64,000 bases of DNA. Origin: Halarchaeum grantii (GTDB lineage Archaea > Halobacteriota > Halobacteria > Halobacteriales > Halobacteriaceae). Shown here piece after piece: positions 45,031 through 46,079 of the stretch. The position numbers and the translations under genes are program-made. The notes beneath the pieces were generated by a model, which was given only the letters and a program-made list of their open reading frames with translations, was not told the origin of the DNA and did no database searches. Numbering within the stretch: the stretch's first letter is position 1; each line of letters starts with the position of its first letter. The stretch lies in assembly GCF_014647455.2 (NCBI RefSeq), contig NZ_BMPF01000002.1:310001-374000 (forward strand), in the 5' to 3' direction.

Positions 45031-45564
45031 ATGGGTGACCCGCTCTCGGTCGGTGCGCGCGCGCCGGACGTGAGCGCCCCGCTCGTCTACCCGGACGGCC
45101 GCGTCGCGGACGTCGCGCTCTCGTCGCTCGTCGAGGAGCGACCCGTGTTGCTCGCGTTCTACACGAACGACTTCAGCCCGGACTGCATGGAGGAGTGGTG
45201 TTCGTTCCGGGACTACGGCTGGTTCGCGAACGACGAGCGCGTGCAGGTGATCGGCGTCTCGAAATCCCGCGCGGCGACTCACCGGCGCTTCATCGACTAC
45301 CTCGACCTCGACTTCCCGCTCTACTCGGACCGCGACTTCGCGCTCACGGAGGCGTTCGGCGTCGACTACCGCGTTCTCAGGCTCCTGCGGCGCCCGAAGC
45401 GCTCGGTGTTCCTGCTGGACTCGGAGCTGACGGTGCGCTATCGGTGGGTGGGCGAGCATCCGGTGGACGCGACGCGTGCACAGCCGCCGATAGCGGCGGT
45501 CCGCGACGCCATCGAGGACGCCTTCGGCCCCGCCGATTCGGAGTCGTTCGGCTTCGACGTCTGA
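45031..45564 (+). CDS. Peroxiredoxin / redoxin family protein
   Basis: A 177-residue AhpC/TSA-like redoxin. Cys52 and Cys57 are in the motif [15 protein letters not shown], the position of the peroxidatic cysteine, and the [20 protein letters not shown] and [17 protein letters not shown] blocks are typical of BCP-type peroxiredoxins. It reduces peroxides using thioredoxin-like donors. TATA-like GCTTATCCG (45001-45009) precedes the ATG by about 27 bases. Next to it lies an iron-box-like site. Confidence 0.87.
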
Positions 45565-45587
45565 GTCCGCCGAAAAGCTTTTTGCGT

Positions 45588-45603
45588 TTTAGGCACACCT
45601 AAA
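45588..45603. promoter_or_regulatory. Perfect iron-box-like dyad TTTAGG-CACA-CCTAAA
   Basis: Perfect 6-base arms with a four-base centre, of the TTAGGn-nCCTAA type bound by DtxR-family iron regulators (Idr/SirR) in haloarchaea. It lies 23 bases after the peroxiredoxin stop and just after a T/A-rich AAAAGCTTTTTG that could be a TATA region, so it would sit at the start site of a + strand transcript into the gap. Confidence 0.65.
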
Positions 45604-45604
45604 T

Positions 45605-45690
45605 CGTGTGTCGGGACCGGACGCACGTCGTCGTGCCCCCTGCACCAGCGGTCCCGGACACGGGCAGCACCGAGAGAGAATCGTCCCATA
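45605..45690 (+). ncRNA. Candidate small RNA downstream of the iron-box-like dyad
   Basis: The first bases after the dyad fold into a long hairpin: GTGTCGGGACCG (45608-45619) pairs with CGGTCCCGGACAC (45649-45661) over 12 bp with one bulged base, and GCACG-TCGT-CGTGC (45623-45636) forms an inner stem. The region lies between convergent genes, so the operator has no ordinary gene to control. A frame from GTG 45606 is open but runs antisense through the tRNA-binding protein gene and is not credible. The 3-prime end is a guess. Confidence 0.4.
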
Positions 45691-45758
45691 GCCACTATTC
45701 GACGGTTGTGTTCAGCGGGTCGGCGCTCGGGGGTGAGGGCCTCGACGCCGGTCTCGTC

Positions 45759-46079
45759 TCAGTAGAGTTCCCCGCCGAGCGGCACGTCCGCGTCGGGGCC
45801 GACGAGCATCGGGTTCCCGTCGGCGTCGGGCACGCCGAGCGTGAGCGCCTCCGACTCGAAGCCCGCGATGTTCACCGTGCCGAGGTCGACCGCACAGAGC
45901 ACCTGCCGGCCGACGACGTCCGCGGGGTCGTGGTTGTAGCCCAACTGGGCGGCCGACTGGCGCGTCTCGTCGCCGAAGTCGATTTCGAGCTTGAACAGCT
46001 CGGGCTTGCGCGCTTCCTCGAAGCGTTCGGCGCTCCGGATTTCGCCGACGCGAACCGTCGTCTCGAGCGGACCGGACAT
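45759..46079 (-). CDS. tRNA-binding (EMAP/CsaA-like) domain protein
   Basis: A 106-residue stand-alone OB-fold tRNA-binding domain like that at the C-terminus of methionyl-tRNA synthetase or in CsaA. Typical blocks: VRVGEIRSAERFEEARKPEL, KLEIDFGDETRQSAAQLGYN, GRQVLCAVDLGTVNIAGFES and the ending GVPDADGNPMLVGPD. Start ATG 46079 (MSGPLET). It is divergent from the next gene across a 103-base region with a strong dyad. Confidence 0.85.
   Translation of the reverse strand: MSGPLETTVRVGEIRSAERFEEARKPELFKLEIDFGDETRQSAAQLGYNHDPADVVGRQVLCAVDLGTVNIAGFESEALTLGVPDADGNPMLVGPDADVPLGGELY

Follow-up and report, generated by a model that had tools for sequence, protein, structure and literature searches.

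The window, a stretch of 64,000 nucleotides of Halarchaeum DNA, contains at 45588-45603 a perfect TTTAGG-CACA-CCTAAA dyad (TTTAGGCACACCTAAA), its sole exact match within that stretch. The locus raises the question of what such an operator might control in a gap on which the flanking genes converge. The initial annotation had described the dyad, the A/T-rich sequence just before it and the convergence of a peroxiredoxin gene and the gene of a tRNA_bind protein, all of which are present. The features on which the following sections draw are these.

45031-45564, + strand: peroxiredoxin (AhpC/TSA) gene, upstream, serving as the syntenic anchor
45571-45584, + strand: BRE/TATA-like promoter element CGAAAAGCTTTTTG, conserved in the four Halarchaeum and placed as at regulon genes
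45588-45603, no strand assigned: DtxR/Idr-type iron operator TTTAGG-CACA-CCTAAA, assigned by exact match, regulon and conservation
45604-45718, + strand: proposed small RNA, with no coding potential and with both ends predicted
45608-45661, + strand: hairpin of the initial annotation (12 bp, one bulge, inner stem), not exceptional and not conserved in sequence
45682-45692, + strand: conserved motif CGTCCCATAGC, with 45683-45692 complementary to the start region of aconitase (-3 to +7)
45696-45708, + strand: TATTCGACGGTTG, forming 13 Watson-Crick pairs with codons 2-6 of a [2Fe-2S] ferredoxin gene
45703-45715, + strand: CGGTTGTGTTCAG, forming 12 Watson-Crick pairs and one G.U with codons 3-7 of a nitrite/sulfite reductase gene
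45759-46079, - strand: tRNA_bind-domain gene, convergent, not kept beside the unit in H. acidiphilum

The operator sits between the BRE/TATA-like element and the expected transcription start, which the spacing from the TATA element places near 45605. Use of the aconitase site would require the RNA to extend beyond 45692 at its 3′ end, and use of all sites beyond 45715; no terminator was recognised for the proposed RNA. The 155 bp behind the operator (to 45758) showed no coding potential to a codon-usage gene caller that recovered both neighbours.

Ten exact copies of the operator occur in the genome. Operator-like sites with at most one mismatch number 12 in the 2.42 Mb read, none of them inside a gene (0/12), and the site at 45588-45603 is the only one of the 12 between converging genes. 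Genes behind other operators encode periplasmic siderophore-binding-type proteins (Peripla_BP_2), a FecCD permease and a class-III aminotransferase, and a ferritin-like protein gene has the operator upstream with one mismatch. Two Fe_dep_repress proteins, with iron-dependent repressor DNA-binding and dimerisation domains, are encoded as well, at 109-113 kb of C6; the genome, that is, combines an operator common to iron-homeostasis genes with a repressor of the DtxR family. Several regulon genes have a TATA-like, A/T-rich element that is followed directly by the operator and, 4-8 bases further on, by the start codon. This TATA-operator-start geometry of the siderophore genes recurs, on the + strand only, at 45588-45603, where the promoter carries a palindromic TTAGG-N4-CCTAA operator. 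These shared sequence features give good support to the membership of the site in a genome-wide DtxR/Idr-type iron regulon, and binding of the repressor would be expected. In the DtxR-family regulons described from haloarchaea (Idr1/Idr2 in Halobacterium; Idr, SirR and TroR in Haloferax), the operator type and the kinds of genes regulated are alike (PMC11349517), whereas the unit controlled at 45588-45603 is no protein gene.

Conservation and folding of the unit

Promoter and operator lie behind the orthologous peroxiredoxin gene in all four Halarchaeum species available, namely that of the window, H. rubridurum, H. nitratireducens and H. acidiphilum. The promoter element reads CGAAA[A/C]GCTTTT in all four, and CGAAACGCTTTT is also found in the three relatives. 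The operator halves are perfect throughout, around four spacers that all differ (CACA, TAGA, CGAA and CTTA). This conservation of operator and promoter amounts to more than chance. Approximately 60-80 bases past the operator, the relatives carry CG(T/C)CCCATAGC(C)ACT, and CG(T/C)CCCATAGC is the sole block behind the promoter common to the four species. Operator and CCCATAGC occur together at matching spacing in 4/4 Halarchaeum and in 0/388 other Halobacteriales genomes; in other genera of the family, the peroxiredoxin is present and the unit is absent. Because the fourfold-degenerate sites of the neighbouring genes are only 61-81% identical among the Halarchaeum species, the conservation of the unit points to selection. 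The 11-base word common to the window and H. rubridurum was reached by 18 of 3,000 shuffles, and the 8-base core common to all four species by 69 of 3,000. Within the transcribed part, H. rubridurum and H. nitratireducens share 45 identical bases, and the RNA body of the window is highly diverged from its relatives.

The hairpin to which the initial annotation had drawn attention does exist, as a 12-bp stem (45608-45619 with 45649-45661) with one bulge and an enclosed second stem, but it does not go beyond chance, having a stability of z = -1.46 and a fold as good as that of 5.7% of intergenic 60-mers. The relatives fold differently (z from -1.3 to -2.3, against -0.9 for the window), and 0/17 pairs are altered on both sides in a comparison of only three sequences; compensatory changes, the test that had been set for this specific stem, therefore fail to bear it out. 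The covariance search suggested across Halobacteria fared similarly, in that a model built from the three relatives found no further match in 392 genomes and did not recover the window copy. No Rfam family was matched at the RNA. The hairpin, being of ordinary stability and showing no covariation, was rejected as the defining feature. Together with the differing folds and the failure of the model on the window copy, this means that the unit is not defined by a conserved fold; its conservation is confined to promoter, operator and a single short sequence. The proposal of an iron box driving a small RNA, in contrast to that of the stem, appears well supported by the iron regulon, the conserved promoter, the lack of coding potential and the conservation throughout the genus.

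Complementarity to the starts of iron-enzyme messages

The reverse complement of the motif core, GCTATGGG, has 10 copies in 2.42 Mb, and the one copy that falls on a start codon is that of aconitase. In the window, the aconitase target CCGCUAUGGGACAAA can pair with GUCCCAUAGC of the RNA over 10 bp (-3 to +7). In H. nitratireducens and H. rubridurum, the aconitase gene GGUGCUAUGGGAC matches the RNA GUCCCAUAGCACU with 12 Watson-Crick pairs and one G.U, and in H. acidiphilum the match to the aconitase start comprises 10 pairs and two G.U, with one mismatch in the site. Among the 2,406 gene starts of the window genome, into which each relative's own aconitase start was inserted for its ranking, aconitase came first or tied first for 4/4 tails. 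Shuffled tails matched aconitase equally well in 10 of 20,000 cases for the window and in 3 of 20,000 for H. rubridurum. An exact search with the 11-mer GCTATGGGRCG returned the locus itself only, missing aconitase because the latter matches 10/11 bases.

In outgroups, which lack the RNA, aconitase genes show the identical CGCTATGGGACA context; this indicates that the target sequence is older and that the signal is carried by the RNA side. As the start contexts of both aconitase and sdhC are alike in genera lacking the RNA, no target-side selection is visible except at two bases, -4 and -5, where additional pairs, with RNA and target both fitting, are found only in H. rubridurum, H. nitratireducens and H. 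acidiphilum. The aconitase TATA box lies 33 bases before the ATG, which argues for very short leaders in the target messages. The CAUAGCAC tail is predicted to be 88-99% unpaired in the three relatives; for the window, the corresponding figure at the aconitase site is 64% if the RNA ends at 45700, but for all target-pairing sites it is only about 30% once the RNA extends to 45718 or beyond.

When 45666-45735 of the window was scanned against the 2,406 gene starts with no preselection of genes, the two longest matches were to nitrite/sulfite reductase (13 pairs, one of them G.U) and to the [2Fe-2S] ferredoxin (13 Watson-Crick pairs). The apical loop of the H. rubridurum and H. nitratireducens RNAs has as its two best matches the nitrite/sulfite reductase start (12 bp, with the window's gene) and sdhC. 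In these two species, GACUCAUACC can pair with their own sdhC GGUAUGAGUC over 10 bp (-3 to +7), a match reached by 110 of 50,000 shuffles and retained in H. acidiphilum with one mismatch and one G.U. The capacity to pair with the starts of iron-protein mRNAs is therefore found in silico for aconitase in four species, for sdhC in two, and for the reductase and the ferredoxin in the window. Iron-dependent enzymes emerge from three separate stretches of the RNA, and nitrite/sulfite reductase is reached from two different places in two diverged RNAs. Matches this long arise readily by chance, with 13 pairs reached somewhere by 69% of random intergenic 70-mers, so that the weight rests on the identity of the targets; and since the target tests were picked after the data had been viewed, they provide strong indications, not proof. 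The strongest thermodynamic match of the window RNA tail was a near-continuous duplex with the htpX coding start (C2:416672, - strand; -38.1 kcal/mol, 0/160 shuffles), and HtpX was dropped as a target because the duplex is missing in H. rubridurum and H. nitratireducens.

The main alternative is that the iron-regulated small RNA is real but its mRNA matches are coincidental, the RNA acting via protein binding or on other targets. Chance matches of 10-13 bases are indeed frequent, and the RNA body diverges fast. Against this, the one block conserved among the four species is that which matches aconitase, and the best matches from three separate stretches all fall on iron-enzyme genes, so that we regard coincidence as unlikely.

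It seems distinctly less probable again that the unit gives iron-regulated transcription running antisense to, or colliding with, the convergent gene, or that it affects the peroxiredoxin message, and the two neighbours that the initial annotation had offered as targets lose ground with this reading. The promoter does face the tRNA-binding gene in the window, H. rubridurum and H. nitratireducens. In H. acidiphilum, however, a different convergent gene takes its place while promoter, operator and motif are intact, which means that antisense action on the tRNA-binding gene is not the conserved role; moreover, conservation stops at the CATAGCACT motif. As for peroxiredoxin, the proposed RNA starts downstream of its stop codon. 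The start regions of trans-encoded messages (aconitase, sdhC, nitrite/sulfite reductase and the [2Fe-2S] ferredoxin) would be better targets than either neighbour. The replacement in H. acidiphilum is a small zinc-ribbon gene, rearranged directly behind the RNA unit, the stop codon of which abuts the conserved CATAGCACT motif.

An iron-controlled, leaderless gene for a short peptide is very improbable. An ATG or GTG stands 2-6 bases behind the operator in 4/4 species, which is how many regulon genes begin, but the frames end differently in H. rubridurum, H. nitratireducens and H. acidiphilum, with a one-base frame shift between the first two; most differences between H. nitratireducens and H. 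acidiphilum would be non-synonymous, the window peptide is unrelated, and coding potential is lacking. That operator and promoter are the relic of a lost gene, as the want of a gene behind the promoter might suggest, can be practically set aside, because operator halves that stay perfect in four species around altered spacers, along with the motif conserved further downstream, speak for continuing selection.

A proposed iron-sparing RNA in archaea

From the sequence comparisons, the locus probably encodes an iron-repressed, trans-acting, iron-sparing small RNA, an analogue of RyhB under a DtxR-family repressor. This RNA is predicted to be transcribed, to respond to iron and to pair with its targets in the cell. 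In the presence of iron, an Idr-type repressor of the DtxR family would occupy the operator between the TATA element and the start, thereby blocking transcription, and under low iron its release would allow a short RNA to be made from near 45605. Stretches of this RNA may then pair, as their computed complementarity suggests, with the first codons of iron-dependent enzyme mRNAs, those of aconitase in four species, of sdhC for the H. rubridurum and H. nitratireducens RNAs, and of nitrite/sulfite reductase and the [2Fe-2S] ferredoxin for the window RNA. Pairing would mask the start codons of messages that are probably nearly leaderless and stop translation initiation; with fewer iron-rich enzymes translated, iron would be spared.

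Small RNAs that spare iron are known throughout the bacteria, typically under the control of Fur. RyhB of Escherichia coli, FsrA of Bacillus and IsrR of Staphylococcus are iron-sparing sRNAs, which the candidate resembles in its iron-repressor promoter and in its complementarity to the starts of aconitase, succinate dehydrogenase and other Fe proteins (PMC11257911). It differs from them in being archaeal, in having an operator of DtxR/Idr type and not of Fur type, and in the nearly leaderless nature of its targets; with no Rfam match it has no sequence relationship to them, and the likeness to RyhB is one of analogy, not of homology. Functionally, it would add a new, archaeal variant to the class of iron-sparing sRNAs, and by descent it belongs to no known family. 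With marginally less confidence than the role itself, we also consider it likely that this is an archaeal iron-sparing RNA controlled by a DtxR-family regulator rather than Fur, confined to one haloarchaeal genus and convergent with bacterial RyhB-type RNAs in its targets, through the masking of start codons on nearly leaderless mRNAs.

Few archaeal sRNAs, to our knowledge, have defined targets. Haloferax volcanii s479 has mRNA targets and is tied to zinc transport, and Methanosarcina mazei sRNA162 acts on cis and trans targets via two domains; in the accounts consulted, neither is described as iron-repressed or as targeting iron enzymes. No archaeal counterpart of an iron-sparing sRNA was found in the literature searched, a body of work separate from the main haloarchaeal iron-regulon papers. 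If the proposed role is correct, the same circuit and the same targets would have evolved convergently under another repressor family, and the archaea would gain an sRNA whose trigger is known and whose target pairs can be tested directly, as well as a test case for sRNA silencing of nearly leaderless messages.

Other operator sites in the genome

Paired operators 35-36 bp apart occur at C3:483620 and 483655, C5:130144 and 130180, C8:3492 and 3528, and C2:576471 and 576506, an arrangement that suggests stacked or cooperative binding of the repressor. The RNA promoter has a single operator, unlike these paired-operator iron promoters. Some 2.4 kb before the window begins, at C2:307539, a leaderless frame of 10 codons (MRRSSIREVA, stop) lies behind an exact operator, and its stop overlaps the start of a DUF7552/DUF7551 gene; the frame is possibly an iron-regulated upstream ORF, and the DUF7552/DUF7551 protein an unstudied member of the iron regulon. 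At 95-98 kb of C3, operators precede a ferritin-like (Dps-type) gene and a small unnamed gene (MTPTRRSTRTEHTED...), approximately 2 kb apart.
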